A DNA stretch of 64,000 bases from Verrucomicrobiia bacterium (lineage in GTDB: Bacteria; Verrucomicrobiota; Verrucomicrobiia; Limisphaerales; JADLHS01). Positions 42,440 through 57,167 of this stretch are shown here, in pieces (position 1 is the stretch's first letter; every line of letters begins with the position of its first letter). Position numbers and translations under genes: made by a program. The notes under the pieces were generated by a model that worked only from the letters and a program-made list of their open reading frames with translations, was not told where the DNA came from and searched no databases. The stretch lies in assembly GCA_026125285.1 (NCBI GenBank), contig JAHCLO010000007.1, forward strand, positions 124,001-188,000. The letters are read 5' to 3'.

Positions 42440-42513
42440 ACGCCGAGCGCCAGCTTGCGCAGCAGAGTCTCCAAAACTCAGCTTGCTCGGGGCAGCACCG
42501 AGGCGGCGTGCCA
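42440..42513 (+). tRNA. tRNA-Trp(CCA)-like, G55 elbow
   Basis: Acceptor ACGCCGA with GCGGCGT (6/7), D stem GCGC/GCGC, anticodon loop CTCCAAA (CCA), T stem CTCGG/CCGAG with loop GGCAGCA (G55 instead of U55), discriminator G73 as expected for Trp, encoded CCA. Confidence 0.85.
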
Positions 42514-42520
42514 CTTTTCC

Positions 42521-42595
42521 GGGGTCGTGGCAGACAAGTAATGCACTTGCCCTGCAAGCAGGTTGATGAGGGCGCGATACCCTCCGACTCCACCA
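42521..42595 (+). tRNA. tRNA-Ala(TGC)-like, G55 elbow
   Basis: Acceptor GGGGTCG/CGACTCC pairs 7/7 and contains G3:U70, the alanine identity pair. Anticodon loop CCTGCAA gives TGC with C33 rather than U33. T stem GAGGG/CCCTC, loop CGCGATA. A73, encoded CCA. Confidence 0.85.
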
Positions 42596-42601
42596 TTTCA
42601 C

Positions 42602-42674
42602 TGCGGGGAGAATGAGATTCAGGCGAGCCTCATAAGCTCAGCCTCCGTGGGTGCAACTCCTACCCCCGCTACCA
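42602..42674 (+). tRNA. tRNA-Met(CAT)-like, G55 elbow
   Basis: Acceptor 6/7 (TGCGGGG/CCCCGCT), anticodon loop CTCATAA (CAT), T stem GTGGG/CCTAC with loop TGCAACT, A73, encoded CCA. The D arm is short (GAAT-GAG-ATTC). The anticodon could also be a lysidine-modified Ile; elongator Met is the simplest reading. Confidence 0.82.
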
Positions 42675-42679
42675 CTTTT

Positions 42680-42767
42680 GGGAAGTGATCCGGCTGCCGG
42701 CCTGTAAATCCGGTGTCTTCAAACAAGCCGGAAGCGACGACTGGGGCGTTACCAGCACTTCCCACCA
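42680..42767 (+). tRNA. tRNA-Tyr(GTA)-like, G55 elbow
   Basis: Acceptor GGGAAGT/ACTTCCC 7/7, anticodon loop CTGTAAA (GTA), long variable arm as in bacterial Tyr, T loop GGCGTTA, A73, encoded CCA. Confidence 0.88.
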
Positions 42768-42772
42768 TTTCT

Positions 42773-42848
42773 GGATCCGTAGCTCAATCAGCAGAGCACC
42801 CCGTTGTCTGCGGGAGGGTTGAGGGTGCGACTCCCTTCGGGTCCGCCA
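42773..42848 (+). tRNA. tRNA-Asp(GTC)-like, G55 elbow
   Basis: Acceptor GGATCCG/CGGGTCC 7/7 (one G:U), D arm GCTC-AATCAGCA-GAGC (AG in place of GG), anticodon loop TTGTCTG (GTC), T stem GAGGG/CCCTT with loop TGCGACT, G73 as in Asp, encoded CCA. Confidence 0.9.
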
Positions 42849-42854
42849 TTTCCT

Positions 42855-42930
42855 CGGAACGTAGCTCAGTCTTTAGAGCGCGCGGCTTGGGCCCGCGAGG
42901 TCGCAGGTGGAAATCCTGCCGTTCCGACCA
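42855..42930 (+). tRNA. tRNA-Pro(TGG)-like, G55 elbow
   Basis: Acceptor CGGAACG/CGTTCCG 7/7, D arm GCTC-AGTCTTTA-GAGC with no GG, anticodon stem CGCGG/CCGCG with loop CTTGGGC (TGG), T stem GCAGG/CCTGC with loop TGGAAAT, A73, CCA. Confidence 0.9.
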
Positions 42931-42948
42931 ATTTGAGCAGTGAACGGC

Positions 42949-45318
42949 TTAGAGATCCTGGAAACGCCGCGTTTTGAATGGGCCGCTCTTTGCCTTCAAC
43001 ATTCTCTTCAGAGCGGAAATGCCGGCGTTGCGCTGATCCTCCGGCCAGTAAAGTTGGAACGCGGGCGCGCCTTCGATACGGTTGGAAATTAACCAGGCGT
43101 AGAAATCGCATGTACGGAACTCCTTGCCGTCGATTTCCTCGTCATTCGAGGATTCCACGGTATATCCGTACGGGCGCGCGGTGGAGAGTCTTTGGTCGAG
43201 CCAATAGCCGTTTTTTGCGCTTCCAACAATCTTGCCACAATGCGATTCATCCCGAAGCAAGCGGATGACGAACGATCGGAATTCAGTCTTGTTGATAATC
43301 GGTGAGCCGAAGAATTCTTCGATGCCAAACCGTGGCGAACTCATTCGCTTGGGGTCGGGAGTGCTGATCCTGCGAAAGAAAGTAAACCATTGGGAGCGCT
43401 CGTTTTGAAACATAAAGCTCCACATATCCGCCCAAGCGGGATCGTTGGGATACTCTCTGATTGGTGCGAGAATCTGTCCGGGGTGAAGATGAAACTGATC
43501 TGGGCTGATTGCCTTCAGCCAGCGTGCGTATTCAGGCAGCGCGCGCTTGTCGCCCGCTTTAACGCGAAGGGAAACCAAGACCGGCAGTTGGGCGGAAAGG
43601 GTCATGTGCGAGCACAGCGAACAATGCTTGTTGGGATCCAACTTGGTGTAAGCCAAGTCGGTTAGCTTGCGAAAGGTCCCAGTCCCGGCATCGCGATCCC
43701 ATTTAGCGAGGCAGATGGCGAGGTCACACGCCGCGTTCAGGTCAGAAGCGTCATCCACAGTGCCGCCGGCGGGCGTTTTCCCGGCGGATAGAGCAGCCAG
43801 AGCCTCAATGCGCCTGATGAGCAAACCCGAAACCGATGGATTCGCTTCTAACCGAAGCGATTCGCCACGCATCGGGCTCGTATCATTCAAGTCGAGTGGC
43901 AATCCCCAAGGATAATTCCAACGACCAGACGGCACGCAGGCTTTATTGGTGGGCTGAACAATGATGGAGGCAGCTTCGAACCAGCGACCTTGGTCGTCTT
44001 GGAGAATTGCATACAGGCGCTGCTCGCGTGACAGGTTCTTGTACTGATTCCAATAGTCACGCATTGCCGCCGCGGCGCGGCGGTAGATCGCCTGCCTTTC
44101 GTCGGGAGTTTCCTTCTCAGTGAAGGCGGGTGCGAACTGGGTGGTTTCGAGAATGTTTTCTATCGCCACATAAGCAGGCTCGCGCACGCTGACGATGGTG
44201 CGCTCTGTTCGGCTGCTGTATCTACCACCGCCGAACATGCTATAAGGAATCACCCGCGTTAAGCGGTTATCGTTCTCGAAACATTCGATCAGCAGACCCA
44301 CTGCATCCCACCCTTCTCGGATGAGCGCTTGAACTGTGGAGTTTTTCAAGAAGTCGCGGTCGAGGGCATAACCAGCTTGTTGAGCCGTTACGTTTTCGAG
44401 TTGATCTATCAACGCTATGATTCTCTGCGATTTGTCAGCAACGGTCGCCGGATCGCGCAATGGGGTTAAGCGGCGGTGCCGCCGCTCTTGATCGCGCACC
44501 AACCACGGCAGCGCATCCAAAAATGGAAAGTAGGACTCCGCCTTGGAATAGCGGGGATCGGGTTCAAGGCGTTGGTCAAATTGAAGGCCGCGTGATTTTG
44601 CTTCCGCCTCACATTCGTCCCTGGTCTCAGCCAAGACCACGGTCAGATGATATGCCAAATCATCATCCGCTCGCATGTGTGCGCAGGTTGCCCGGTCATA
44701 CATGGTCCAAAGCCGTCCGGTCGTCAGCAGCATAAAGGGTTCGTCCTTTTCCACCAATCGGACACACGATGCCGCAAACTCGTCCGGCGCAAACCGGAGA
44801 ATCAGAGCAATTTTCAGCGGCGTCAGCCATTGTGTCCCAACGCAATAATCCTCAGTTGTGATGACTTGGCCGCGCAAGCTGCCGATTCCCCTATTCAGCA
44901 TCATGGTCTCCGTCATAACGCGAATCATGGTTCGAGCGTCGTCTTTTGCGTTTGCTGGATCGCCCACTGACGTGAGTGGATAAATCAAACCATTCCAGCC
45001 GATGGCGAAATTCGTTCGAGCATTCGTCGCTGCCGGTAACACCCAACCTCGTGTCTTCACCGGAACGCCAGAAACTCTTGAGAGGCTGCCAACAACAATC
45101 TCAATCTCGCGGTATTCGCAGCCGCGTGGATCGGCCAACCCCGTACGGAAAAGGAAATCCACGGCACTTTGCAGGTTGGTGGAGAGAGTTGAAGCCGACG
45201 GCGCCCACGGCGCGGACTGCATCGGGGGCACTGGAAAGAAAGCAGAGTCCGCCGCCAGCGCCACATTCCCTCCGACAACAGAGACACAGTACCAAAATGC
45301 GCAGGCCAACACTTTCAT
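42949..45318 (-). CDS. Hypothetical secreted protein inside the tRNA array
   Basis: 789 aa, signal peptide MKVLACAFWYCVSVVGGNVA ending near ALAADS. The body is soluble, with YREIEIVVGSLSRVSGVPVK and a later HCSLCSHMTLSAQLPVLVSL segment. No recognised domain; similar proteins are probably confined to related bacteria. Transcribed against the flanking tRNA genes, 18 bases from the end of tRNA-Pro and 85 bases from the next tRNA, with AT richer than the operons outside. Likely exported. Its relation to the RNA functions is unclear; it may be a passenger. Confidence 0.7.
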   Translation of the reverse strand: MKVLACAFWYCVSVVGGNVALAADSAFFPVPPMQSAPWAPSASTLSTNLQSAVDFLFRTGLADPRGCEYREIEIVVGSLSRVSGVPVKTRGWVLPAATNARTNFAIGWNGLIYPLTSVGDPANAKDDARTMIRVMTETMMLNRGIGSLRGQVITTEDYCVGTQWLTPLKIALILRFAPDEFAASCVRLVEKDEPFMLLTTGRLWTMYDRATCAHMRADDDLAYHLTVVLAETRDECEAEAKSRGLQFDQRLEPDPRYSKAESYFPFLDALPWLVRDQERRHRRLTPLRDPATVADKSQRIIALIDQLENVTAQQAGYALDRDFLKNSTVQALIREGWDAVGLLIECFENDNRLTRVIPYSMFGGGRYSSRTERTIVSVREPAYVAIENILETTQFAPAFTEKETPDERQAIYRRAAAAMRDYWNQYKNLSREQRLYAILQDDQGRWFEAASIIVQPTNKACVPSGRWNYPWGLPLDLNDTSPMRGESLRLEANPSVSGLLIRRIEALAALSAGKTPAGGTVDDASDLNAACDLAICLAKWDRDAGTGTFRKLTDLAYTKLDPNKHCSLCSHMTLSAQLPVLVSLRVKAGDKRALPEYARWLKAISPDQFHLHPGQILAPIREYPNDPAWADMWSFMFQNERSQWFTFFRRISTPDPKRMSSPRFGIEEFFGSPIINKTEFRSFVIRLLRDESHCGKIVGSAKNGYWLDQRLSTARPYGYTVESSNDEEIDGKEFRTCDFYAWLISNRIEGAPAFQLYWPEDQRNAGISALKRMLKAKSGPFKTRRFQDL

Positions 45319-45403
45319 CCTGTTGCGAGATTGGACCCCAAGCAGTTCAAAGTCAACCAGGGGAGAATTGCCAACCGAATTACGATTTTGCGCATTTCAA
45401 ATT

Positions 45404-45480
45404 GCTGCCGTGGTCGAACACATCAGGCATCCGTCTTCTAAGCGGACTTCATGCAGGTGGGAATCCTGCCGGCAGCGCCA
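45404..45480 (+). tRNA. tRNA-Arg(TCT)-like, G55 elbow
   Basis: Acceptor GCTGCCG/CGGCAGC 7/7, anticodon stem TCCGT/GCGGA with loop CTTCTAA (TCT), T stem GCAGG/CCTGC with loop TGGGAAT, G73, encoded CCA. D loop lacks GG. Confidence 0.88.
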
Positions 45481-45481: not shown

Positions 45482-45556
45482 TGCCAGGTGGTGTCAAAGT
45501 AGCACGGCGGCCTGTTAAGCCGTTCGGTGTTGGTGCGAGTCCAACCCTGGCAGCCA
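45482..45556 (+). tRNA. tRNA-Asn(GTT)-like, G55 elbow
   Basis: Acceptor TGCCAGG/CCTGGCA 7/7, D arm GTGT-CAAAGTA-GCAC, anticodon loop CTGTTAA (GTT), T stem GTTGG/CCAAC with loop TGCGAGT, G73 as in Asn, encoded CCA. Only one base separates it from tRNA-Arg(TCT). A further degenerate tRNA-like stretch may extend to ~45657 (T-loop-like TGCGACT), overlapping the 3' end of the next gene; I could not fold it. Confidence 0.9.
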
Positions 45557-45604: not shown

Positions 45605-46432
45605 TCAGGGTGAGGCGACGCCTAACGGGATTGGTTCACCGGTGCGACTCCAGAGCCAACGGAAGTCTTCGCTCTGGTTATTACGGGGAGGCCAATCGAC
45701 TCCATGGCCGGCGAAGCGTATTGGGAACTTTAGGTCAGGATCGCGCCAACGTTTGGCTTCCGCATGCCCATCAGCAAAGTCCAGAGTGCCGCTGCCATTG
45801 TGCAGCGAACCGGGAAAGTGGATGAATCCGTGGAACGGGCGGTCGGGGTATGCGTCGATGGCAAACTGTCGTTCACGCGTCGTCTCAGGATGGTTATCAA
45901 TAAAGACAAAGCGATGCGACGGGTCGCTACGGGAAAGATCAGCGGTCTTTGCGTAAAAGTTCCAGTAGATACTCCGGTTCTCGGGTGGTGGCAGTCCCAT
46001 GGTGTGATTCATTGAGACATTGCGGATACGGCGTGTTAGACCAGCCGCCCTTTGCTTGGGGCTTACGTAAAAGTCGGCGGTGCATTGATAGATGGCGGCG
46101 TTTTTGGAGTAGTGGCCGAGGACGGAGTGTACCGGTGACATCAACCTCGCCACATTTGTAGTCACATCCCAAGCTTCCCATGATTGCAAGTCGGAAGTCC
46201 ATACGCTCTTTTCGGGGTCTGACACATTCAAGACGAGGCCACCATTGTTGTCATCAGCATAGAGCGTCCAGGCAATGGCAAGCTGCCGTTTGTTGTTCAG
46301 GCACTCTACGAGTCTCGCTTTTGTTTTCGCAGAGGAAAGTGCGGGCAGAAGGAGTGAAGCTAGGACGGCAATGATTGCGATAACCACCAGCAATTCGATC
46401 AGTGTAAATGCACTTTTTCGTCGCCAGTTCAT
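45605..46432 (-). CDS. Prepilin-type (type II pseudopilin-like) secreted protein
   Basis: 275 aa from ATG 46432. [20 protein letters not shown] is the class III signal with cleavage before Phe and the conserved Glu5; the C-terminal part contains [14 protein letters not shown], the WW/H-x9-DG-type tail found in the many such proteins of Planctomycetes and Verrucomicrobia. Exported by a pilus-like or type II system. Placed on the opposite strand within the tRNA array. Confidence 0.88.
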
Positions 46433-46538
46433 GTGAGCGTCAAAAAATTTAGCGAGTAAACTGTAAGCCCGTGGGGTGTCCGGCGGCCAGCCGCAAATCA
46501 CGCGGATCAAGAGTAAGAGCAAGATGGAGGCCTTTTCA

Positions 46539-46627
46539 GGAAGGCAGGCAGATATAAGCTGGCTGCACCTGTCTCGAAAACAGGATCGGCATCGCCGAGG
46601 TCGGAGCATTACCGACGCCTTCCGCCA
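46539..46627 (+). tRNA. tRNA-Ser(CGA)-like, G55 elbow
   Basis: Acceptor GGAAGGC/GCCTTCC 7/7, anticodon stem CCTGT/ACAGG with loop CTCGAAA (CGA), long variable arm as in Ser, T stem GTCGG/CCGAC with loop AGCATTA, G73 as in Ser, encoded CCA. Confidence 0.9.
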
Positions 46628-46628: not shown

Positions 46629-46702
46629 CGTCCTGTAGCTCAATAGCAGAGCACCCGGCTGATAACCGGGCGACCGCGGAGGATTACCGCGCGGGACGAC
46701 CA
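46629..46702 (+). tRNA. tRNA-Ile(GAT)-like, G55 elbow
   Basis: Acceptor CGTCCTG/CGGGACG 7/7, D arm GCTC-AATAGCA-GAGC, anticodon stem CCCGG/CCGGG with loop CTGATAA (GAT), T stem CGCGG/CCGCG with loop AGGATTA, A73, encoded CCA. One base after tRNA-Ser. Confidence 0.9.
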
Positions 46703-46811: not shown

Positions 46812-46886
46812 CCCCAAGTAGCTGAGGCAGATTAGCGCCTCCCTGAAGAGGAGGAGACGTTGGCGCGCTACCAACCTCGGGGACCA
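46812..46886 (+). tRNA. tRNA-Phe(GAA)-like, G55 elbow
   Basis: Acceptor CCCCAAG/CTCGGGG (6/7), anticodon stem CCTCC/GGAGG with loop CTGAAGA (GAA), T stem GTTGG/CCAAC with loop CGCGCTA, A73, encoded CCA. The 109 bases before it (46703-46811) show no feature. Confidence 0.86.
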
Positions 46887-46891: not shown

Positions 46892-46963
46892 GTAGCGGCG
46901 TCTCGGTAGAGCGCCGCCATGCTCAATTTCCATGTCTGCGGCGCTCTTCCGAGACGCCGCTAC
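46892..46963. repeat. Inverted repeat (GTAGCGGCG type) in the rtcB leader
   Basis: 26-base arms 46892-46917 and 46938-46963 are reverse complements with one mismatch. Ends 28 bases before the rtcB start codon, so a transcript from upstream would carry a long hairpin close to the ribosome-binding site. Confidence 0.85.
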
Positions 46964-46991
46964 GCCCGGAGATTCTCAATTCTCAACTCAA

Positions 46992-48125
46992 ATGAACTCT
47001 CAATTGCTCTCCACTCAGGTGCGCCTTTTCGCCTCGGCCCGAAGCTGGATCGAAGGCGAAGCGGTGCGTCAACTCTATGCCACGGCGAAGCTCGATGGCG
47101 TGCGACTCGCGGTGGGCTTCCCGGATTTGCATCCGGGCAAAGGCACGCCGGTCGGCGCCGCCTTCGTGACTGAAGGCGTGATCTATCCGCACCTCATCGG
47201 TGGGGACATCGGTTGCGGCATGGCGCTGTTCAAGACGGACCTAGTGCGTCGCGACGCCAAGCTCGACCGTTGGGCAGATTTGCGCTTCAACCTCGAACAC
47301 CCGTGGGACGAGTTCGTGTACGGCTTCCTGGCCGAACACGATCTGGAGTCCACGGAGTTCGACCCGGCACTTGGCACCATCGGCGGCGGCAATCACTTCG
47401 CCGAGTTGCAGGCCGTTGAGGAGATCCTCGACGCCAGCGCATTCCGCAAGATCGGCCTGGGCAAGCAGCAACTGGTGGTGCTGGTCCACAGCGGCTCGCG
47501 TGGATTGGGTGAATCCATCCTGCGGGCTCACGTGGAACAGCACTTCGGTGACGGCGTGGAAACCGAATCGTTCGCCGCAGAGGCATACCTCCGCGACCAC
47601 GACGTCGCTGTGCGCTGGGCCAAGGCGAACCGGGAACTCATCGCCCGTCGCTTCGTGGCGACGCTCGGTGCGGAAGCCGAATGCCTCTGGGACGGTTGCC
47701 ACAACAGCATCACGCGCTGCGAAAGCGAGGCCGCTGCTGTCTGGGTCCACCGCAAGGGCGCAGTCACTGTCGAGAGCAACTTTGTGGTCATCCCCGGTTC
47801 GCGCGGCTCGCTCAGCTACCTCGTGAGACCGACGGGCGATGGTGAAAGTCACGCCTGGTCGCTGGCTCACGGTGCGGGTCGGAAGTGGGCACGCAGCGAA
47901 GCTCGGCTCCGCATGCGCGAACGGTTCCACCGTCATCAGTTGGTGCAAACGCCGCTCGGTGGCCGGGTGGTCTGCGAAGAGCGCGACCTGCTCTACGAGG
48001 AAGCGCCGGGTGCCTACAAGAAGGTCGAGACAGTGGTTCAGGACCTCGTTGATGCCGGACTCGTGTCCGTCATCGCGACGTTGCGACCACTCCTCACCTA
48101 CAAGACGCGCAAACTTCGCCGCTAG
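46992..48125 (+). CDS. rtcB: RtcB-family RNA ligase (short clade)
   Basis: 377 aa from ATG 46992. GGDIGCGM (residues 71-77) with Asp72 and Cys75 binds manganese; GGGNHFAE (131-138) and LVHSGSRGLG (165-173) supply further metal His residues; VIPGSRGSLSYLV (266-278); and LAHGAGRKWAR (291-301) holds the His293 expected to be guanylylated. RtcB joins 2',3'-cyclic phosphate to 5'-OH ends using GTP and Mn, repairing cleaved tRNAs. It is shorter than E. coli RtcB (408) and belongs to the clade usually called RtcB-like or RtcB2. It sits within the tRNA array and ~5.3 kb from Ro60, its known functional neighbour in other bacteria. No rtcA or archease is visible. Confidence 0.93.
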   Translation: MNSQLLSTQVRLFASARSWIEGEAVRQLYATAKLDGVRLAVGFPDLHPGKGTPVGAAFVTEGVIYPHLIGGDIGCGMALFKTDLVRRDAKLDRWADLRFNLEHPWDEFVYGFLAEHDLESTEFDPALGTIGGGNHFAELQAVEEILDASAFRKIGLGKQQLVVLVHSGSRGLGESILRAHVEQHFGDGVETESFAAEAYLRDHDVAVRWAKANRELIARRFVATLGAEAECLWDGCHNSITRCESEAAAVWVHRKGAVTVESNFVVIPGSRGSLSYLVRPTGDGESHAWSLAHGAGRKWARSEARLRMRERFHRHQLVQTPLGGRVVCEERDLLYEEAPGAYKKVETVVQDLVDAGLVSVIATLRPLLTYKTRKLRR

Positions 48126-48240: not shown

Positions 48241-48318
48241 GTCCGTGAATGCAAAGCAGCTCGCGCATCCAGCCCTTCAAGCTGGTCCTAGCCGGTGCGA
48301 GTCCGGCCACGGATGCCA
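48241..48318 (+). tRNA. tRNA-Glu(TTC)-like, G55 elbow
   Basis: Acceptor GTCCGTG/CACGGAT 7/7 (one G:U), anticodon stem CCAGC/GCTGG with loop CCTTCAA (TTC, C33), T stem GCCGG/CCGGC with loop TGCGAGT, G73 as in Glu, encoded CCA. It starts 115 bases after rtcB on the same strand. Confidence 0.88.
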
Positions 48319-48321: not shown

Positions 48322-48401
48322 GCTCTCAAGGTGTAATTAGTCTCCTGCACGCCGCTCTGCGAAGGCGGAGGTTCGTGGTGCAAATCCACGTGAGAGCACC
48401 A
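48322..48401 (+). tRNA. tRNA-Arg(GCG)-like, G55 elbow
   Basis: Acceptor GCTCTCA/TGAGAGC 7/7, anticodon stem CCGCT/GGCGG (one wobble) with loop CTGCGAA (GCG), T stem CGTGG/CCACG with loop TGCAAAT, A73, encoded CCA. GCG-anticodon Arg genes are unusual in bacteria, where ACG (inosine) normally serves. Confidence 0.85.
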
Positions 48402-48409: not shown

Positions 48410-48485
48410 GCCCCCGTGCCTCAGCAGCTACAGGGCGGGTTTCGTAAACCCGTATTCGTCGGTGCGAGTCCGACCCGGGGCTCCA
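48410..48485 (+). tRNA. tRNA-Thr(CGT)-like, G55 elbow
   Basis: Acceptor GCCCCCG/CCGGGGC 6/7, anticodon stem CGGGT/ACCCG with loop TTCGTAA (CGT), T stem GTCGG/CCGAC with loop TGCGAGT, U73, encoded CCA. Confidence 0.86.
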
Positions 48486-48593: not shown

Positions 48594-48667
48594 GTGATCA
48601 TGATGTAACAGTAGCATCACGCCCCGTGAAGGCGTTTGTGCCGGTGCGAATCCGGTTGGTCACCCCA
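48594..48667 (+). tRNA. tRNA-His(GTG)-like, G55 elbow
   Basis: Acceptor GTGATCA/TGGTCAC 7/7, preceded by G at 48593 and followed by C73, the G-1:C73 pair that defines histidine tRNA. D arm ATGT-AACAGTA-GCAT, anticodon stem ACGCC/GGCGT with loop CCGTGAA (GTG, C33), T stem GCCGG/CCGGT with loop TGCGAAT, CCA encoded. Confidence 0.9.
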
Positions 48668-52556: not shown

Positions 52557-52633
52557 AGTCCCGTAGTTCAACTGCGATAGAACGCTCGGACCAGGTCCGG
52601 GAGATGTGAGTTCGATTCTCATCGGGAGTCCCA
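52557..52633 (+). tRNA. tRNA-like gene with canonical T loop, anticodon unclear
   Basis: Acceptor AGTCCCG/CGGGAGT pairs 6/7, D stem GTTC/GAAC, T stem GTGAG/CTCAT with the canonical loop TTCGATT, C73 and CCA. The anticodon arm is CTCGG-ACCAGGT-CCGGG, which would give CAG with C33, or folds tighter as CGGAC-CAG-GTCCG. It is the only complete member of the array with U55 and it directly precedes the Y-RNA cluster. The 245 bases before it (52312-52556) show nothing I can support. Confidence 0.65.
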
Positions 52634-52637
52634 ATTT

Positions 52638-52745
52638 GGACGGGCCGTTGAGTATGGATTATCGGTGAAGCGGGCAACCGCGAGCGGGTTCGAACCCTGC
52701 ACCATCGGGCGACTGATGGATTCCCAACTCGTCTCTTGTCCGTCC
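52638..52745 (+). ncRNA. Y RNA 1 (tRNA-like domain without D arm)
   Basis: Outer stem GGACGGGC (52638) pairs 8/8 with GTCCGTCC (52738), followed by a bulged C and then GTTGAGTATGGATTATC, the conserved 5' Ro-binding strand. The interior holds GCGG-GCAA-CCGC, a T arm GCGGG-TTCGAAC-CCTGC and a CCATC/GATGG hairpin. First of five tandem Y RNAs upstream of the Ro60 gene. Confidence 0.82.
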
Positions 52746-52768
52746 TCGTGGCCGTGCGCCAGCACTTT

Positions 52769-52898
52769 CGACGGGTCGCAGGATTGGGTTATCGTTCATC
52801 ACGACGTGGTCGCCGGTTCGAGTCCGGCCTCCGGAACCAAGTGCCGGAGTAGCTCAGTGGTAGAGCACGTAAACTCCTAGTTCGTTTCTTATCCGTCG
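52769..52898 (+). ncRNA. Y RNA 2 (tRNA-like domain)
   Basis: Outer stem CGACGGGT (52769) with ATCCGTCG (52891), 8/8. Interior: T arm GCCGG-TTCGAGT-CCGGC, then a closed acceptor-like hairpin CTCCGGA ... GCCGGAG (6/7) that still includes ACCA, then D arm GCTC-AGTGGTA-GAGC. The order T arm - acceptor - D arm is that of a tRNA entered through its anticodon stem, as in known bacterial Y RNAs. Confidence 0.88.
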
Positions 52899-52921
52899 TA
52901 TTGGCCGTGCGCCAGCACTTT

Positions 52922-53048
52922 CAGCGGGCCGTAGATTGTGGATTATCGTGGATTCGGCAGTGGCGGTTCAAGTCCGCCCCGAGGAGCAGTCCGAGGTGGT
53001 GTAATGCAAGCACACCGGGCAATTCCACAGTCGTCTTCTTGTCCGCTG
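52922..53048 (+). ncRNA. Y RNA 3 (tRNA-like domain)
   Basis: Outer stem CAGCGGGC (52922) with GTCCGCTG (53041), 8/8, bulged C, then the conserved strand with TGGATTATCG. Interior: CCGGG/TTCGG anticodon-stem-like pairing, T arm GGCGG-TTCAAGT-CCGCC, acceptor-like CCGAGGA/TCCGAGG with a tandem G-A mismatch, D arm GTGT-AATGCAA-GCAC. Confidence 0.86.
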
Positions 53049-53075
53049 CTTTTGCTGGCCGTAAGCCATCACTTT

Positions 53076-53199
53076 GATGGGCCGAAGTTGTGGGTTATCG
53101 CGTGTTGTTGGTTCGAATCCAATCCCCGGAGGAATTCGGGGTAGCTCAACGGTAGAGCAGCCTCCGCAAGGAGTAATTCCACGGCGTCCCTTGCCCATC
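53076..53199 (+). ncRNA. Y RNA 4 (tRNA-like domain)
   Basis: Outer stem GATGGGC (53076) with GCCCATC (53193), 7/7, bulged C, then GAAGTTGTGGGTTATC, which resembles the Ro-binding strand of animal Y RNAs. Interior: T arm GTTGG-TTCGAAT-CCAAT, acceptor-like CCCCGGA/TTCGGGG (7/7 with one wobble), D arm GCTC-AACGGTA-GAGC with canonical GG. Confidence 0.9.
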
Positions 53200-53206
53200 C
53201 AGCTTT

Positions 53207-53273
53207 CTGCGGGCCGAAGAACATGGGTTATCACTTCAAATGACCAACCCCACGTTCACCAACTTGTCCGCAG
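53207..53273 (+). ncRNA. Y RNA 5 (minimal, no tRNA-like domain)
   Basis: 67 bases. Outer stem CTGCGGGC (53207) with GTCCGCAG (53266), 8/8, bulged C and GAAG, then an upper stem AACATGGGTT with AACCCCACGTT closed by a ~16-base loop. It is only the Ro-binding stem with a loop. 157 bases upstream of the Ro60 start codon. Confidence 0.88.
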
Positions 53274-53321
53274 TTCCAAACAACACACCCGTGCCGGGAG
53301 TTGGCGGCGCATCAAGACAGT

Positions 53322-53417
53322 GTAGCAGCCGACGTGAGTCGGCTCTGACTTCCTTCCCCGTTCCGCAATCGGCGGATGCTTGGAGTTCAGTTAGAGCGAA
53401 CTGACGTTCGCTGCTAC
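53322..53417. repeat. Nested palindromic repeat in the Ro60 leader
   Basis: Outer GTAGCAG (53322) pairs with CTGCTAC (53417). Inside are AGCCGAC-GTGA-GTCGGCT and AGCGAAC-TGAC-GTTCGCT, both perfect. Family of GTAGC-ended dispersed repeats. It ends 13 bases before the Ro60 start. Confidence 0.8.
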
Positions 53418-53430
53418 CAATAAAGAAAAC

Positions 53431-55080
53431 ATGGCTATCAATTATGCAAAGCTCTTCAACCGCCGGGTCACGTCGCAGTCGCAGCCGATCCCGGGTTCGA
53501 CCCAGATCCGCAACTCGGCCGGCGGCTACTCGTGGGAAGTGGATGACTGGACCCGCTTTGACCGTTTCCTGATCCTCGGAGCCGAGGGTGGCACCTACTA
53601 CATTGGCGAGCGTGATCTGGTGAAGCAGAATCACGATGCAATCGTGCGTTGCATCAAGGCGGATGGCATTCGCGCCGTGAACCGCATCGTTGAGATCAGC
53701 GATGCGGGCCGCGCACCGAAGAACGATCCGGCCATCTTCGCCCTCGCGCTCGTCGCGACGCACGGTGACGCAACGGCAAAGGCGCACGCGTTCGCGAACC
53801 TGAACAAGGTCTGCCGCATCGGCACGCACCTGTTCCACTTCGCTGAATACGTGAACGCGATGCGCGGTTGGGGTCGCGGCCTGCGCAATGCCGTGGGCCG
53901 CTGGTATGTGGACCGCGGTGCCGATGACCTCACGCACCAGGCCGTGAAGTATCAGCAGCGCGATGGTTGGGCGCACAGCGACTTGCTCCGCCTCGCTCAC
54001 CCGAAGGCTCCGTCGGTTCAGCACGATGCGGTTTTCCGCTGGATGTTGAATGGTGCAGAGTCGCTGGGTGAACGCGAAGTGAAGCGCAAAGTTCGCGGCG
54101 AGGACCGTGTCGCCAGGTATGCCGCCGTGGGTGAGTTGCCGAAACTCATCGCCGCCTTCGAGCAGGCCAAGAAGGCCTCGAGCAAGGACGAAATCGTGAA
54201 GCTGATCGTCGAGCATGACTTGCCCCGTGAAGCCGTCCCGACGCAGTGGCTCAATGAAGTCGCGGTGTGGGACGCACTCCTGCAGCGCATGCCGATGACG
54301 GCCATGATCCGCAACCTCGGTAAGATGACCAGCATCGGTCTCGTTCAGCCGTTCAGCGACGCGGCCAAGTTGATTGTCCGCAAGCTGGGCGACGAAGCCG
54401 TGCTCAAGCGTGCTCGCATCCACCCAATGGCGGTCTTGATCGCCGAAAAGGTGTATGCCCAAGGCAAAGGCGAGAAGGGTTCGCTCACCTGGAAGCCGGT
54501 GCCGAAGATCATTGATACTCTGGACGCGGCGTTCTACGCGACGTTTCAGAACGTTGAACCGTGTGGCAAGCCGGTGCTTCTGGCACTGGACGTCAGTGGT
54601 TCGATGGGTGGCGGTTCGGTGGCAGGTTCGTGCCTGACGCCGCGTGAAGCCAGCGCGGCGATGGCGTTGGTGACGGCGGCAACCGAGGAGGAATACCACA
54701 TCATGGGATTCTCGAATCGGTTCATTCCACTGAACATCTCGCCACGCATGCGCCTGGACGACGTGGTGAAGCGCATCAGCAACCTGCCGTTCGAGGCAAC
54801 TGACTGCGCCCTGCCGATGCTCTGGGGCCGCGAAAACGAGGTGAACGTTTCGGCGTTCATCACCTACACGGACAGCGAAACGTGGGCTGGAAACATCCAC
54901 CCGGCGCAGGCGCTGCGTCAGTATCGCAGCGAGTTCGTCGGCGACGCGAAGGCAGTCGTTGTGGGCATGACCTCCAACGGCTTCACCCTTGCCGACCCGA
55001 ACGATCGCGGCATGCTGGACGTGGTCGGCTTCGACACGACGGCACCCGCCGTAATCGCAGACTTTGTCCGCAACGGTTAA
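53431..55080 (+). CDS. rsr: Ro60-type TROVE-domain RNA-binding protein
   Basis: 549 aa. N-terminal TROVE/HEAT-repeat ring domain (residues ~20-350; SWEVDDWTRFDRFLILGAEG, then YYIGERDLVKQNHDAIVRCI) and a C-terminal von Willebrand factor A domain with MIDAS motif ALDVSGSMGGG near 385, a Thr loop and TYTDSETWAG. Ro60 forms a ring that binds Y RNA on its outside and the ends of misfolded RNAs in its hole, for quality control and exonucleolytic degradation with PNPase (established in Deinococcus). Five candidate Y RNAs lie immediately upstream and rtcB is ~5.3 kb before it. ATG at 53431 follows GAAAAC with a weak Shine-Dalgarno. Confidence 0.95.
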   Translation: MAINYAKLFNRRVTSQSQPIPGSTQIRNSAGGYSWEVDDWTRFDRFLILGAEGGTYYIGERDLVKQNHDAIVRCIKADGIRAVNRIVEISDAGRAPKNDPAIFALALVATHGDATAKAHAFANLNKVCRIGTHLFHFAEYVNAMRGWGRGLRNAVGRWYVDRGADDLTHQAVKYQQRDGWAHSDLLRLAHPKAPSVQHDAVFRWMLNGAESLGEREVKRKVRGEDRVARYAAVGELPKLIAAFEQAKKASSKDEIVKLIVEHDLPREAVPTQWLNEVAVWDALLQRMPMTAMIRNLGKMTSIGLVQPFSDAAKLIVRKLGDEAVLKRARIHPMAVLIAEKVYAQGKGEKGSLTWKPVPKIIDTLDAAFYATFQNVEPCGKPVLLALDVSGSMGGGSVAGSCLTPREASAAMALVTAATEEEYHIMGFSNRFIPLNISPRMRLDDVVKRISNLPFEATDCALPMLWGRENEVNVSAFITYTDSETWAGNIHPAQALRQYRSEFVGDAKAVVVGMTSNGFTLADPNDRGMLDVVGFDTTAPAVIADFVRNG

Positions 55081-55085
55081 TCAAC

Positions 55086-55113: not shown

Positions 55114-55126
55114 GCTTTCCACTTTT

Positions 55127-55201
55127 GTCCCGTTGGCCGAGCAGCCGAGGCAGTGGTCTGCAAAACCATGCAGGCGGGTGCGACTCCCGCACGGGACTCC
55201 A
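55127..55201 (+). tRNA. tRNA-Cys(GCA)-like, G55 elbow
   Basis: Acceptor GTCCCGT/ACGGGAC 7/7, anticodon stem GTGGT/ACCAT with loop CTGCAAA (GCA), T stem GCGGG/CCCGC with loop TGCGACT, U73 as required for Cys, encoded CCA. Confidence 0.92.
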
Positions 55202-55207
55202 ATTTAT

Positions 55208-55282
55208 CGGGCATAGGTGTTGAGAGACACACGCCGGTCTTCCAAACCGGAATAGAGGGCGCGCTACCCTCATGCCCGTCCA
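55208..55282 (+). tRNA. tRNA-Gly(TCC)-like, G55 elbow
   Basis: Acceptor CGGGCAT/ATGCCCG 7/7, D arm GTGT-TGAGAG-ACAC, anticodon stem CCGGT/ACCGG with loop CTTCCAA (TCC), T stem GAGGG/CCCTC with loop CGCGCTA, U73 as in Gly, encoded CCA. Confidence 0.9.
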
Positions 55283-55284
55283 TT

Positions 55285-55369
55285 TCCCAAGTGAATCCGG
55301 TCTGCCGGCAGAGGCCACGCACGGTCGAAGTAATGGCCAGGCTCCGGATTCAGTGCGCTTGGGATTCCA
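55285..55369 (+). ncRNA. Structured RNA candidate, not a tRNA, possible pseudoknot
   Basis: TCCCAAG/CTTGGGA closes the whole element like an acceptor stem and CCA follows after two T. Inside, AATCCGG pairs with CCGGATT (7/7), TCTGCC with GGCAGA, and GGCCA with TGGCC. A loop CGCAC can pair with GTGCG between the two outer helices. No T loop or anticodon arm is present. Position among tRNAs and the CCA end suggest it is processed like them. Confidence 0.6.
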
Positions 55370-55375
55370 TTTTCC

Positions 55376-55447
55376 GCGACGTGAAACCGGTGCCGGTCAT
55401 GACTTCACAGGCTTGACTGCGGCGGTTCAACTCCGCCTTCGTGTCGC
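55376..55447 (+). ncRNA. Structured RNA candidate with canonical T arm
   Basis: A 9-bp outer stem GCGACGTGA/TCGTGTCGC (two G:U), an ACCGG-TG-CCGGT hairpin, a GTCA/TGAC stem, and a T arm GGCGG-TTCAACT-CCGCC with the canonical loop. No CCA and no clear anticodon. Could be a degenerate tRNA or a tRNA-mimicking regulatory RNA. Confidence 0.5.
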
Positions 55448-55450
55448 TTT

Positions 55451-55522
55451 GGGTTGCAAACTTTGACAGTGAAGTCCCGGCTCTTAACCGGCGAGAACTC
55501 GGTGCGAATCCGAGGCGACCCA
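55451..55522 (+). tRNA. tRNA-Lys(CTT)-like, G55 elbow, CCA not encoded
   Basis: Acceptor GGGTTGC/GCGACCC 7/7, anticodon stem CCCGG/CCGGC with loop CTCTTAA (CTT), T stem CTCGG/CCGAG with loop TGCGAAT, A73, then CG instead of CCA. Confidence 0.85.
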
Positions 55523-55530
55523 CGTTTTGA

Positions 55531-55600
55531 GACGAGGATGGAGAATAGAAGATTGAGGATGGCGGTCTTGCCATCTTCCATTCTCCATCTTCGATCTTCG
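55531..55600. repeat. GAGGATGGAGAAT palindromic repeat, copy 1
   Basis: GACGAGGATGGAGAAT on the left and ATTCTCCATCTTCGATC on the right form a long imperfect hairpin between tRNA-Lys and tRNA-Arg. Related to the copy at 56909-56990. Confidence 0.8.
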
Positions 55601-55611
55601 TTTCGAGAAAC

Positions 55612-55687
55612 GCATCCGTGGTGAAATTATGATCATCCTCCGCTTCGAACGGAGAGTTTGCAGGTGGGAGTCCTGCCGGATGCACCA
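55612..55687 (+). tRNA. tRNA-Arg(TCG)-like, G55 elbow
   Basis: Acceptor GCATCCG/CGGATGC 7/7, anticodon stem CTCCG/CGGAG with loop CTTCGAA (TCG), T stem GCAGG/CCTGC with loop TGGGAGT, A73, encoded CCA. Confidence 0.9.
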
Positions 55688-55693
55688 ATTTAC

Positions 55694-55777
55694 GGGCATG
55701 TGGTTCAACCCGAATAGCAGAGGGTCCAGACTCAGAATCTGGCAGCCTTGGGGGTGCAAGTCCCTTCATGCCCACCA
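55694..55777 (+). tRNA. tRNA-Leu(CAG)-like, G55 elbow
   Basis: Acceptor GGGCATG/CATGCCC 7/7, D loop with AATAGCAGA, anticodon stem CCAGA/TCTGG with loop CTCAGAA (CAG), long variable arm as in Leu, T loop TGCAAGT, A73, encoded CCA. Confidence 0.9.
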
Positions 55778-55782
55778 TTTCA

Positions 55783-55865
55783 CGGCGACTGGCTTCAGCG
55801 GGAACAGCAGACCCCGGCGACTTAAAATCGCCGAGCCTTCCGGGTGCAAGTCCCGGGTCGCCGAC
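55783..55865 (+). tRNA. tRNA-Leu(TAA)-like, G55 elbow
   Basis: Acceptor CGGCGAC/GTCGCCG 7/7, anticodon stem GGCGA/TCGCC with loop CTTAAAA (TAA), long variable arm, T stem CCGGG/CCCGG with loop TGCAAGT, A73. Only AC is encoded before the next tRNA starts, so CCA must be completed after processing. Confidence 0.88.
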
Positions 55866-55949
55866 CGGCGTGTGGTTCGCAGGGAATAGCAGACCGGTTC
55901 GGCTCAAACCCGAACAGCCTTGGGAGTGCAAGTCTCCCCACGCCGACCA
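55866..55949 (+). tRNA. tRNA-Leu(CAA)-like, G55 elbow
   Basis: Acceptor CGGCGTG/CACGCCG 7/7, anticodon stem TTCGG/CCGAA with loop CTCAAAC (CAA), long variable arm, T stem GGGAG/CTCCC with loop TGCAAGT, A73, encoded CCA. It abuts tRNA-Leu(TAA). Confidence 0.9.
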
Positions 55950-55953
55950 ATCT

Positions 55954-56041
55954 GGAATGTCCACCGGTCAAGCGTGCCGGGCCTGTTTGCTAAACAGTGC
56001 GTGCCTCCGGGCAAGTGGTGCAAGTCCACGGCATTCCGCCA
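55954..56041 (+). tRNA. tRNA-Ser(GCT)-like, G55 elbow
   Basis: Acceptor GGAATGT/GCATTCC 7/7 (one G:U), anticodon loop TTGCTAA (GCT), long variable arm as in Ser, T stem with GTGG/CCAC and loop TGCAAGT, G73, encoded CCA. Confidence 0.87.
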
Positions 56042-56042
56042 T

Positions 56043-56134
56043 GCGCGCGTAGCTCAAAGAGAGCCGGCGGCTTTATACCCCGCATCGCACTAGATCAGTG
56101 CCGGGATCCGGAGCGTTACCGGACGTGCGCACCA
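56043..56134 (+). tRNA. Class II tRNA-like, anticodon TAT or TTA
   Basis: Acceptor GCGCGCG/CGTGCGC 7/7, D arm GCTC-AAAGA-GAGC, long variable arm (GCACT-AGATC-AGTGC), T stem TCCGG/CCGGA with loop AGCGTTA, A73, CCA. The anticodon arm GCGGC-TTTATAC-CCCGC has a C:C closing mismatch and reads TAT; a shifted fold with loop CTTTATA reads TTA, which would decode the ochre stop. Isotype left open. Confidence 0.7.
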
Positions 56135-56139
56135 TTTCG

Positions 56140-56215
56140 AACCCCTGAACGCAAAGCAGCTCCAGCGGCCTCCTCGTGAGGTGATCTAGCCGGTGAAAGA
56201 GACCGGCCAGGGGTT
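56140..56215 (+). tRNA. tRNA-like with 9-base T loop, anticodon unclear
   Basis: Acceptor AACCCCTG/CAGGGGTT (8 bp), D arm nearly identical to that of tRNA-Glu at 48241, T stem GCCGG/CCGGC but with a nine-base loop TGAAAGAGA. Anticodon arm CCTC-CTCGT-GAGG cannot be assigned. No CCA. Confidence 0.55.
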
Positions 56216-56224
56216 TGACCTTTT

Positions 56225-56300
56225 GTCCCCATAGCTCAAAGCACAGAGCGGTCGCGTCCTAAGCGTCAGGCTGCCGGTGAGAGACCGGCTGGGGACACCA
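56225..56300 (+). tRNA. tRNA-Arg(CCT)-like, G55 elbow
   Basis: Acceptor GTCCCCA/TGGGGAC 7/7, D arm GCTC-AAAGCACA-GAGC, anticodon stem GTCGC/GCGTC with loop GTCCTAA (CCT), T stem GCCGG/CCGGC with loop TGAGAGA, A73, encoded CCA. Confidence 0.87.
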
Positions 56301-56304
56301 TTTC

Positions 56305-56348
56305 GCGGGTGTAGTTCAACAGCAGAATGCGGCCGTGCCAAGACCGCT
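56305..56348 (+). pseudogene. 5' half of tRNA-Gly(GCC), truncated
   Basis: CGCGGGTG, a D arm GTTC-AACAGCA-GAAT, and an anticodon arm GCGGCC-GTGCCAA-GACCGC (GCC), then the sequence changes to the AbiEi-like gene on the other strand. The T arm and acceptor 3' strand are missing. Confidence 0.75.
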
Positions 56349-56551
56349 CCCAACCAAGTCGGCTCCGCTGCTTGGACCGTAAAGGCCCCATCGCCGATGC
56401 GATGCAGCCATCCAGAACCAGCGTAGTAGCCGGCCAGCTTGCTGGATATGCCGCGTTCTTTCAGCCAAGCGGAGGTAAGCACCGCACTGGCCGGAGCAGC
56501 AACCAGACATTGGTTTATTCTTTTGCTATTTGAACTAGTGTGACTAGCCAT
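56330..56551 (-). pseudogene. AbiEi-type antitoxin gene fragment
   Basis: From ATG 56551: residues 1-75 include SAVLTSAWLKERGISSKLAG and SGWLHRIGDGAFTV, matching the N-terminal winged helix of AbiEi_3-type transcriptional-regulator antitoxins of the abortive-infection AbiE system. The frame then runs into tRNA sequence (formally to 56186). Only the DNA-binding part survives; no AbiEii toxin is visible. Confidence 0.7.
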
Positions 56552-56562
56552 AAACGCACTTT

Positions 56563-56591
56563 AGTAAACCATTCGGTTTGAATTCTGTCAA
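56563..56591 (-). promoter_or_regulatory. Promoter with operator-like palindrome for the AbiEi fragment
   Basis: On the minus strand a perfect -35 TTGACA (56586-56591) and -10-like TTTACT (56563-56568) are 17 bases apart, 12 bases upstream of the ATG. The palindrome AAACC-GAAT-GGTTT overlaps the spacer, and CTAGT-GTG-ACTAG lies just after the start: the layout expected for an autorepressed antitoxin. Confidence 0.65.
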
Positions 56592-56713
56592 ATAAAACCA
56601 GCAAGGCTGGATTTATTAGCATGGAAGTAAACCTCGACACGTCGAAAGATTCCGTTTTCGCCTCCATGCAGCAGCCTGCGGATTTCTTTTGTAAAGAATT
56701 CCTGCCGGAGCAT
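56588..56713 (-). CDS. Possible small protein
   Basis: 41 codons from ATG 56713: MLRQEFFTKEIRRLLHGG, then a basic/hydrophobic stretch. Base composition is AT-richer than the rest. No domain; could be the end of a lost gene. Confidence 0.25.
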   Translation of the reverse strand: MLRQEFFTKEIRRLLHGGENGIFRRVEVYFHANKSSLAGFI

Positions 56714-56739
56714 CACCGGCTGGAGGCTCCATCCACTTT

Positions 56740-56814
56740 GCTCGCGTAGCCCAATGCAGAGGCACGACGTCGAGAACGTCGCCAGTGCAGGTGCAATTCC
56801 TGCCGCGAGCACCA
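56740..56814 (+). tRNA. tRNA-like (anticodon GAG), G55 elbow
   Basis: Acceptor GCTCGCG/CGCGAGC 7/7, anticodon stem CGACG/CGTCG with loop TCGAGAA (GAG, C33), T stem GCAGG/CCTGC with loop TGCAATT, A73, CCA. GAG would be leucine, but the short variable loop is not leucine-like, so the isotype is uncertain. Confidence 0.78.
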
Positions 56815-56821
56815 GTTTCAC

Positions 56822-56898
56822 GGAGTCGAAGCCACAGCAGACCGGCATCGGACTTTTAATCCGGTTGGGTGAGGCTGCAACTACCTCCGGCTCCACCA
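56822..56898 (+). tRNA. tRNA-Lys(TTT)-like, G55 elbow
   Basis: Acceptor GGAGTCG/CGGCTCC 7/7 (one G:U), anticodon stem TCGGA/TCCGG with loop CTTTTAA (TTT), T loop TGCAACT with one mismatched closing pair, A73, encoded CCA. Confidence 0.88.
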
Positions 56899-56908
56899 GC
56901 TTTCGCGG

Positions 56909-56990
56909 TGAGGATGGAGAATGGACAATGGAGGATGGCCGTAGCGCAGGGAAACTTGCGATCCTCCATCCACAATTCTCCATCTTCGTC
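56909..56990. repeat. GAGGATGGAGAAT palindromic repeat, copy 2
   Basis: GTGAGGATGGAGAATGGAC on the left and CACAATTCTCCATCTTCG on the right. The middle includes GTAGCGCAGG, linking it to the GTAGCGCAG repeats elsewhere. Between tRNA-Lys and tRNA-Gln. Confidence 0.8.
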
Positions 56991-56997
56991 CCTCCAG

Positions 56998-57167
56998 TGC
57001 CTCGTGGTGTAACAGCAGCATGTCGGGCTTTGACCCCGTCGGTCTTGGTGCATATCCAAGCTCGCCCCGTGAGATAACCGTCTTGAGCAGTCACGCCGAC
57101 ATCCAACGATTCAAGCGGCGGTTTGATAGGCAACTCCGATGCTGTATCTCACGGGACGAGGCAGCCA
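56998..57167 (+). tRNA. tRNA-Gln(TTG)-like, interrupted between T arm and acceptor 3' strand
   Basis: 5' acceptor TGCCTCG, D arm GTGT-AACAGCA-GCAT, anticodon loop CTTTGAC (TTG), T stem CTTGG/CCAAG with loop TGCATAT. The matching 3' acceptor CGAGGCA with G73 and CCA lies ~96 bases further at 57157-57167. The insert carries a 16-bp-class hairpin (CTCGCCCCGTGAGATA at 57061 with TATCTCACGGGACGAG at 57145) whose 3' arm overlaps the acceptor strand, so the two folds are mutually exclusive. Confidence 0.7.

Follow-up and report, generated by a model that had tools for sequence, protein, structure and literature searches.

A 64,000-nucleotide stretch of contig JAHCLO010000007.1 from a Verrucomicrobiia bacterium (positions 124,001 to 188,000; assembly GCA_026125285.1; this whole stretch is hereafter called the window) carries an island of transfer RNA (tRNA) genes in which the elbow is rewritten by a coordinated swap from G18-U55 to A18-G55. 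Judging by the sequences, A18 and G55 would contact one another in the folded tRNA. Parsing of 36 candidate stretches within 42.5-57.1 kb yielded 27 tRNA genes, all on the plus strand, in which none of the acceptor, anticodon and T arms is broken, and each of the 27 has a guanine as the second base of its T loop, at position 55. Two damaged genes, one for Gln(TTG) and one Glu-like, also have G55 when read by eye, and together with the 27 intact genes they make up the 29 derived T loops, all with G55, that an earlier, sequence-only reading of this DNA had reported. Every readable derived T loop of the island has G55 and falls into one of two classes, TGNRANN-like or NGNNNNA-like. The island tRNAs have the cloverleaf with a 7-base-pair acceptor, an anticodon arm and a 7-nucleotide T loop, and do not have the U55 and G18 of a canonical bacterial elongator tRNA; CCA lies directly 3' of 25 of the 27. 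We read the island as a reserve set of translating tRNAs whose A18-G55 elbow would likely sustain translation when enzymes recognizing the normal elbow damage or remove ordinary tRNAs, a reading to which we give about even odds (roughly 50%).

The intact genes represent 17 amino acids, or 18 when the cut Gln gene is counted, and neither a Trp nor a Val gene was found in the window. The sequence-only reading had rightly listed Val as absent, but its total of 19 amino acids was too high, Trp being missing as well. A Trp gene is present in the related locus L042, and Val genes in L012, L014, L016, L017 and L022. No transfer-messenger RNA (tmRNA) was found in the window by ARAGORN or by Rfam at the gathering score.

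Ordinary tRNAs of the host keep U55

The ordinary tRNAs of the host, taken from 44 fetched host stretches, have U55 in 46 of 46 cases; 45 of these rows were read directly, and the 46th, which is out of register in its parse, contains TTCGAGT by eye. A comparison with the host's other tRNA genes had been proposed as a check on the idea of a dedicated altered set, and these genes have normal U55 loops. In a second host genome (G385), 28 of the 62 tRNA-match loci gave 33 parses, and the T loop starts with TT in 28 of these parses, with AT in one and with another base in four; the five non-TT parses look like chance, the four with another base scoring 44.5-45. A host-wide change of the elbow was rejected on the basis of the U55 sets in the window's genome and likewise in this second host. 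When the window was scanned blind, 19 plus-strand parses came up; 18 of them lie inside the island, all 18 with G55, and the one outside it and the single minus-strand parse are both without G55. The single tRNA-like parse with a normal loop (TTCGATT) inside the island interval, at 52557-52633, is within the Y-RNA region described below. In the window host, an array covering most isotypes thus accompanies the normal housekeeping tRNAs. We also considered that the rewritten tRNAs encode CCA since the CCA-adding enzyme reads the elbow, an idea that was dropped because 45 of the 46 host tRNAs encode CCA too.

Positions 18 and 55 change together

Positions 18 and 55 were counted in tRNAs with a 7-nucleotide D loop, where positions 18 and 19 are readable by place, other lengths being left out. 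Among 178 such tRNAs, G18-U55 occurs in 96 and A18-G55 in 75, and the crossed combinations are nearly empty (A18-U55 in none, G18-G55 in two); the remainder are U18-G55 (three), C18-G55 (one) and G18-C55 (one). In the Verrucomicrobiota group with full sets, taken with the window, 55 of 58 tRNAs with a 7-nucleotide D loop are A18-G55; the D-loop change noticed from the sequence alone is real, and it is commoner than the "about ten" loops then reported. The strongest evidence comes from the arrays of mixed type, counted over eleven stretches, six from Planctomycetota and five from Verrucomicrobiota: 32 tRNAs are G18-U55, 13 are A18-G55 and none is A18-U55 or G18-G55 (Fisher p 1.4e-11, a value that overstates the evidence because the rows are related), the rest being two G55 cases with U18 or C18 and one tRNA with C55. 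The G55 cases of the mixed arrays are spread over several isotypes and arrays, and in locus L021 the lone normal-loop tRNA of the array has G18G19. A simple GG/AG test on the mixed arrays scores 36 G55 tRNAs without GG and 14 with it, and six T55 tRNAs without GG and 96 with it; we prefer the 7-nucleotide D-loop count because this test mislabels A18-G19-G20 loops. The change is a coordinated swap of G18-U55 for A18-G55, which in mixed arrays switches tRNA by tRNA.

Positions 19 and 56 covary as well. They can pair in 82 of 120 tRNAs, where the shuffle mean is 62 and none of 20,000 shuffles is as high; C56 is accompanied by G19 in 68 of 97 cases, G56 by U or C in 12 of 14, and A56 by U in two of nine. 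Within an equal-length subset of 15, positions 19 and 56 are U-G in six, C-G in four, G-C in two and unpaired in three. With both pairs of positions covarying, the earlier proposal that A18-G55 has replaced G18-U55 and that G19-C56 is often kept holds. Stems also show compensatory changes in two alignments, one of ten Ile genes and one of a mixed set of 15, with none of 500 shuffles as high by that measure. Decay was rejected on the grounds of the near-uniform G55, the 18/55 and 19/56 covariation and the compensatory stems.

Arrays with G55 recur among Verrucomicrobiota

Taken over 24 Verrucomicrobiota-type loci, namely the window island, 18 related loci and five arrays of other families, 338 of 344 tRNA parses have G55. 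These counts drop parses scoring below 46 and window parses outside 42.4-57.2 kb; after the score cut-off 22 window parses enter them, 21 with G55. At 13 loci of other phyla, T55 is found in 173 of 183 array parses, and the ten non-T55 parses score 44-46; nine of these look like chance, and the tenth is a G55 parse at L056:12735-12810 (TGCAATT, without CCA, score 44) in an otherwise T55 array from Myxococcota. The homologous islands, which had been singled out for comparison, have the same G55 loops and not random sequence, and their stems carry compensatory changes.

One scan with the Ro60 protein, run over named genomes, yielded 50 loci. In the Ro60 tree, which has 47 rows and is without L044, L045, L049 and L054, 17 of the rows form one fully supported group; 16 of the 17 have a G55 array, and L036, of the same group, has none in its stretch. 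Besides the window, 15 of the 16 other rows of this group come from Verrucomicrobiota kin, and L013, labelled Proteobacteria, may owe its place to misbinning or to a transfer. Normal-loop tRNA arrays are found in ten rows of the tree that belong to other phyla. Ro60 matches occur in 13 of 57 genomes of relatives, some of them partial or weak.

Of 387 Verrucomicrobiota genomes, eight, among them that of the window, have at least five matches on a single strand to a pattern of the G55 T arm plus CCA; with the reversed control no genome reaches five, the highest having four. Two arrays, L128 and L129, have G55 in 32 of 32 tRNAs within about 3.6 kb, and L129 covers all 20 amino acids from its anticodons, with TAT and AGA counted as Ile and Ser. 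In 150 Pseudomonadota genomes there are at most two pattern matches per strand, the reversed control reaching six in one genome; this absence is weak evidence because the pattern needs CCA and one loop class. The pattern also found six stretches from Planctomycetota (L157-L162) that mix normal and A18-G55 tRNAs. Five further Verrucomicrobiota stretches comprise L132, L134 and L136, which are mixed, and L133 and L135, which hold a few G55 tRNAs. The changed tRNAs that recur in L157-L162 are Cys, Asp, Arg(TCG), Arg(GCG) and Ala(CGC); such recurrent isotypes in Planctomycetota might mark isotypes under attack.

Identity elements are mostly retained

Each bacterial isotype has a known discriminator pattern, and the array tRNAs mostly match it. 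U73 is found in 17 of 17 Cys tRNAs and G73 in 13 of 13 Asn tRNAs; Asp has G in 8 of 8, Trp G in 5 of 5, Lys A73 in 26 of 26, Leu A in 36 of 37, Ser G in 12 of 14, Thr U in 24 of 26 and Gln G in 13 of 16. Glu is divided (G in 14, A in nine), and Arg is mixed. In Ala genes whose acceptor starts with GG, the G3:U70 pair is present in 11 of 12 full-set cases and in 9 of 9 from Planctomycetota. On balance, identity bases that are mostly kept favour charging and disfavour decoys or debris. The view of the sequence-only reading that this is a dedicated set, altered coordinately and not by decay, is borne out by the unaltered host set, the 18 related loci and five further arrays, the covariation of 18 with 55 and of 19 with 56, the stems under selection and these identity bases. 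That reading had overlooked several parts of the picture: RtcB, Ro60, the Y-RNA-like modules and the nearby HNH gene, the tRNA-by-tRNA swap in Planctomycetota, the virus-classed contig and the T loops of two-piece tmRNA.

RNA-repair genes, Y-RNA-like modules and HNH genes accompany the array

Between the island tRNA genes are encoded an RtcB RNA ligase of the RtcB2, release-factor-linked type (46932..48125, plus strand; PF01139 250 bits, TIGR03073 439 bits, NF007153 502 bits) and a Ro60/Rsr protein with TROVE and vWA domains (53431..55080, plus strand; PF05731, PF25045), which scores 527 bits with the NCBIfam Rsr model NF041674 and does not reach its curated cut-off of 900. Directly 5' of the Ro60 gene is a Y-RNA region (52557..53430, plus strand) made up of circularly permuted modules that resemble tRNAs; their T loops have the normal TTCRA, their D loops have GG, and counterparts of them are kept in relatives. 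Two YrlA-like modules, at 52804-52872 and 53100-53161, score 41.3 and 34.1 bits against Rfam YrlA (RF02553), both under the gathering score of 69, and the fold of the Y region alone (z 0.21) is uninformative. Across the Verrucomicrobiota loci, at a score of at least 18, there are 23 TTC-loop modules, 22 of them with a GG D loop, and one G55 module; on the reverse strands, a single TTC module turns up even when no score limit is set. In one and the same island, then, the mimics have retained the normal elbow and the tRNAs have departed from it.

One alternative is that the island genes produce decoys resembling tRNAs, which would capture nucleases, Ro60 or RtcB and play no part in translation. 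Ro60 and Y RNAs are known for roles in RNA decay and RNA binding, and an excerpt of PMC7790460 suggests YrlA as a competitive inhibitor of a nuclease. However, most discriminators, the G3:U70 pair and the diversity of anticodons are kept, and a bait would be expected to have the normal elbow, as the Y-RNA-like modules do, so we regard decoys as improbable and a reserve set that translates as the better description of the array.

Just outside the island lies an HNH endonuclease gene (58332..58922, plus strand; PF13395), which belongs to the same cluster as HNH genes of other arrays and whose relatives adjoin tRNA arrays in several phyla. Relatives occur in nine of the ten Verrucomicrobiota stretches that were fetched, usually at the array end, in three of six Planctomycetota stretches, near arrays in Chloroflexota and one cyanobacterial genome, and directly 5' of a 24-tRNA array on the Nostoc plasmid pNsp_d. 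HNH genes are also the commonest neighbours of mycobacterial tRNA arrays, according to an excerpt of PMC5966550. These associations would suit an immunity at the DNA level, in which the HNH enzyme cuts a widespread tRNA-gene motif, GGTTCRANTCC, the altered GGTGCRANTCC is resistant, and the array is a selfish element that is spread or kept by this means. Yet related HNH genes adjoin arrays with ordinary TTC loops, and position 18, far from the motif, changes with position 55, which cutting of DNA does not predict; we judge this account quite improbable, and return to the reading of the island as a reserve of translating tRNAs.

A virus-classed contig carries a G55 set

Within 39.8 kb, the contig G448, which is IMGVR_UViG_3300025030_001854 (L143, L144), yields 28 tRNA parses; 27 have G55, and no D loop among the 28 contains GG. 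This near-complete G55 set is accompanied by HNH genes and by phage-type genes, among them a phiEco32-like ligase, a thymidylate synthase, an RNA-repair nucleotidyltransferase of the RlaP type and a vWA protein with relatives in the mycobacteriophages Phabba and Myrna. Neither a terminase (PF03237) nor a sheath protein (PF04984) was matched on G448, and because of this its viral nature rests on IMG/VR and the phage-type genes. The window, for its part, belongs to a contig of a bacterial genome.

HNH stretches from four viral contigs (L139-L142) have no tRNA array within the stretch, the contig of L139 having one further on. No G55 array was seen in the viral vWA relatives L147-L149 or in the fetched Phabba stretch, and the contig of L147 (G452) has two G55 pattern matches outside the examined stretch, with a control of zero. 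In the phages S-CBWM1 and Rctr197k, 39 of 40 plus-strand parses have T55, and HNH genes lie near large tRNA sets.

Comparison with known systems

Spare tRNA arrays, operons of RtcB, Ro60 and Y RNA, and G55 in tmRNA are already known; no report of G55/A18 tRNA sets came up in the searches made, which covered open-licence papers. The trn operon on the delta plasmid of Anabaena sp. PCC 7120, with 26 tRNA genes, is likewise a near-complete spare set, and an excerpt of PMC10272220 describes TrcR as a repressor of both this operon and rtcB, and trn as induced by translational stress. The related array on the Nostoc plasmid pNsp_d has an HNH gene homologous to the one near the window island, but it has a normal elbow (18 of 18 parses are T55 with GG), it is without Ro60 among the annotated genes of its 10.4-kb stretch, and it encodes CCA in four of 18 tRNAs, whereas the island has Ro60 and mostly encodes CCA. 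The Rsr-YrlA-RtcBA RNA repair operon of Salmonella and Deinococcus likewise has Ro60/Rsr, YrlA-like modules and RtcB in one locus; unlike that operon, the island has a full tRNA set, and its RtcB belongs to the RtcB2 type. Certain phage tRNA arrays, for which a role against host tRNA nucleases has been proposed, are also large sets with HNH genes nearby (S-CBWM1, Rctr197k). The evasion proposed for phage tRNAs lies in changes to the anticodon loop (PMC10264068, in an excerpt), and S-CBWM1 and Rctr197k keep U55, whereas in the island the elbow is changed across the whole set, G448 being the G55 counterpart among viruses.

The G55/CCA pattern also matched the alphaproteobacterial two-piece tmRNA (RF01849), for which two recurring matches were checked (238.8 and 219.9 bits). 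Its T loop is TGCGATT in L163:504-865 and L164:518-883, and the Rfam consensus is GGCGGUA, so that it shares both G55 loop classes of the island. The tmRNA works with AlaRS, EF-Tu and the ribosome, and both loop classes therefore occur in translation-competent RNA; by analogy, this suggests that charging and ribosomal use of G55 tRNAs are possible. The two-piece tmRNA is a single RNA with a tag-coding part, no anticodon and no normal D arm, whereas the island is an entire set of tRNAs that have anticodons and an A18 predicted to pair.

Possible function of the altered set

As a reserve set, the island tRNA genes would be transcribed under stress or infection, and host synthetases would charge their products for use by the ribosome. 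The island tRNAs would be spared by a nuclease, or by an enzyme modifying tRNA, that recognizes G18-U55 or the pseudouridine in it, and the Y-RNA-like modules, with their normal elbow, would stay visible to an elbow-reading enzyme. RtcB could reseal tRNAs cut in the anticodon loop, and Ro60 and the Y RNAs might handle damaged RNA or serve as bait.

Several observations weigh against this scheme. No elbow-reading nuclease has been identified in the host or its phages, and none was searched for. HNH-linked arrays of other phyla keep the normal elbow, and the swap is therefore not needed for a general role of such arrays. The window copy is partly damaged, with three broken genes and no Val or Trp. 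Three full-set parses have T55, of which those at window 52557 (in the Y region) and in L137 are without the expected GG, and two T55 tRNAs of L136 are also without it. Some identity bases depart from the usual pattern: Gly has A73 in 14 of 20 cases, where host Gly tRNAs have U73, His has C73 in six and A73 in three, and Phe has A in 12 and G in four. In about 14% of Verrucomicrobiota array tRNAs C33 replaces U33, versus 5% in other phyla, and this could weaken decoding. The broken window genes, C33, the lost variable arms of Leu tRNAs and the changed Gly discriminator would all suit relaxed selection, under which redundant spare copies drifted to a tolerated variant; but drift does not account for G55 in 338 of 344 parses, for the near absence of crossed 18/55 pairs or for the compensatory stems, and this explanation is strongly disfavoured, to the point of being barely credible.

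The main competitor to a reserve that withstands attack on ordinary tRNAs is a set that needs no attacker: an A18-G55 elbow would fold well without pseudouridine 55, 2'-O-methyl-G18 and similar modifications, making the tRNAs usable at once in a burst of tRNA synthesis that outruns the modifying enzymes. The swap removes the target bases of TruB (U55) and TrmH (G18), other elbow bases are mostly kept (A58 in 262 and C56 in 300 of the 338 G55 parses), and the modifications of the normal elbow serve to stabilize it, as stated in an excerpt of PMC7912444. This account leaves unexplained the U55 of arrays in other phyla and of the adjacent Y-RNA-like modules, and we think it unlikely, if worth keeping in mind.

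Built on the reserve set, a wider proposal is one that we advance tentatively and would not yet bet on: A18-G55 may be a second, interchangeable elbow code that replaces G18-U55 tRNA by tRNA, with whole sets converted in Verrucomicrobiota and in at least one virus. It would equip a cell or phage with tRNAs of its own in an arms race that turns on elbow-reading enzymes, with the Y-RNA-like decoys keeping the old code. What is new here is an altered elbow in a whole tRNA set, which would surprise tRNA specialists. A near-complete natural set in which both partners of the elbow contact have changed suggests that a coordinated change can lift the constraint. With such a set it becomes possible to test which machines depend on the normal elbow, and whether tRNAs are attacked by way of their elbow at all. 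The island tRNAs could also give naturally evolved scaffolds that are set apart from the host's tRNA-modifying enzymes.

Layout of the island and further observations

From its 5' end, the island runs through tRNA-Ala(TGC) (42521..42595; T loop CGCGATA, G3:U70 kept, CCA encoded), tRNA(CAT) (42602..42674; TGCAACT, U1.U72 mismatch), tRNA-Tyr(GTA) (42680..42767; GGCGTTA, anticodon placed by eye), tRNA-Asp(GTC) (42773..42848; TGCGACT) and tRNA-Pro(TGG) (42855..42930; TGGAAAT, U19-G56), all features named in this section being on the plus strand unless stated otherwise. Next come tRNA-Arg(TCT) (45404..45480; TGGGAAT) and tRNA-Asn(GTT) (45482..45556; TGCGAGT), then tRNA-Ser(CGA) (46539..46627; AGCATTA), tRNA-Ile(GAT) (46629..46702; AGGATTA) and tRNA-Phe(GAA) (46812..46886; CGCGCTA), which precede the RtcB gene. 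Following it are tRNA-Glu(TTC) (48241..48318; TGCGAGT), tRNA-Arg(GCG) (48322..48401; TGCAAAT), tRNA-Thr(CGT) (48410..48485; TGCGAGT) and tRNA-His(GTG) (48594..48667; TGCGAAT), the last with G-1 and C73 kept. Unrelated genes, all on the minus strand, are inserted in the array at 42949-45318, 45605-46609, 49106-50248 and 50315-51139; they encode one protein without a Pfam match, two prepilin-like proteins (N_methyl) and one PepSY membrane protein.

Downstream of Ro60 lie tRNA-Cys(GCA) (55127..55201; TGCGACT, U73), tRNA-Gly(TCC) (55208..55282; CGCGCTA) and tRNA-Lys(CTT) (55451..55525; TGCGAAT, with a tail that is not CCA). Between the latter two are two small conserved units, probably RNAs, at 55283-55368 and 55369-55450; the second, when drawn by eye, can take the shape of a tRNA-like hairpin whose acceptor-T stem is long and whose loop, TTCAACT, is normal, and one or both are kept in L009-L012, L015, L016 and L049. 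The array continues with tRNA-Arg(TCG) (55612..55687; TGGGAGT, A18, U19-G56), tRNA-Leu(CAG) (55694..55777; TGCAAGT), tRNA-Leu(TAA) (55783..55867; TGCAAGT), whose tail is CCG and overlaps the start of the next gene, tRNA-Leu(CAA) (55866..55949; TGCAAGT, anticodon placed by eye) and tRNA-Ser(GCT) (55954..56041; TGCAAGT). A tRNA with anticodon TAT (or TTA) (56043..56134; AGCGTTA) is followed by the damaged Glu-like tRNA (56142..56217; 9-nucleotide T loop, by eye), tRNA-Arg(CCT) (56225..56300; TGAGAGA), a tRNA-Gly(GCC) fragment that has lost its T arm (56305..56350), tRNA-Thr(TGT) (56660..56731; AGCATCA), tRNA-Leu(GAG) (56740..56814; TGCAATT, short variable arm), tRNA-Lys(TTT) (56822..56898; TGCAACT) and tRNA-Gln(TTG), cut at its 3' side (57004..57061; TGCATAT, by eye). 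An element at 57056-57170 begins where this Gln gene breaks off and has a partial repeat at 58130-58207 (partly by eye); the Val and Gln(CTG) genes that come next in relatives such as L012 are missing after it.

Some of these tRNAs have unusual features that are shared with relatives. The TAT-anticodon tRNA at 56043-56134 has a long variable arm, as do its counterparts in L012, L015, L128 and L129; this is unusual for Ile and is kept across families. Leu tRNAs without the long variable arm usual in bacteria are found at 56740-56814 and in L009, L010, L012, L014, L042 and L049. C33 occurs, for example, in the window tRNAs at 48594-48667, 48241-48318 and 56740-56814 and in their relatives. The tRNA(CAT) with a U1.U72 mismatch, at 42602-42674 and in L022 and L042, has an initiator-like acceptor end without the GGG/CCC anticodon stem, and the CAT tRNA of L128 and L129 is fully paired.

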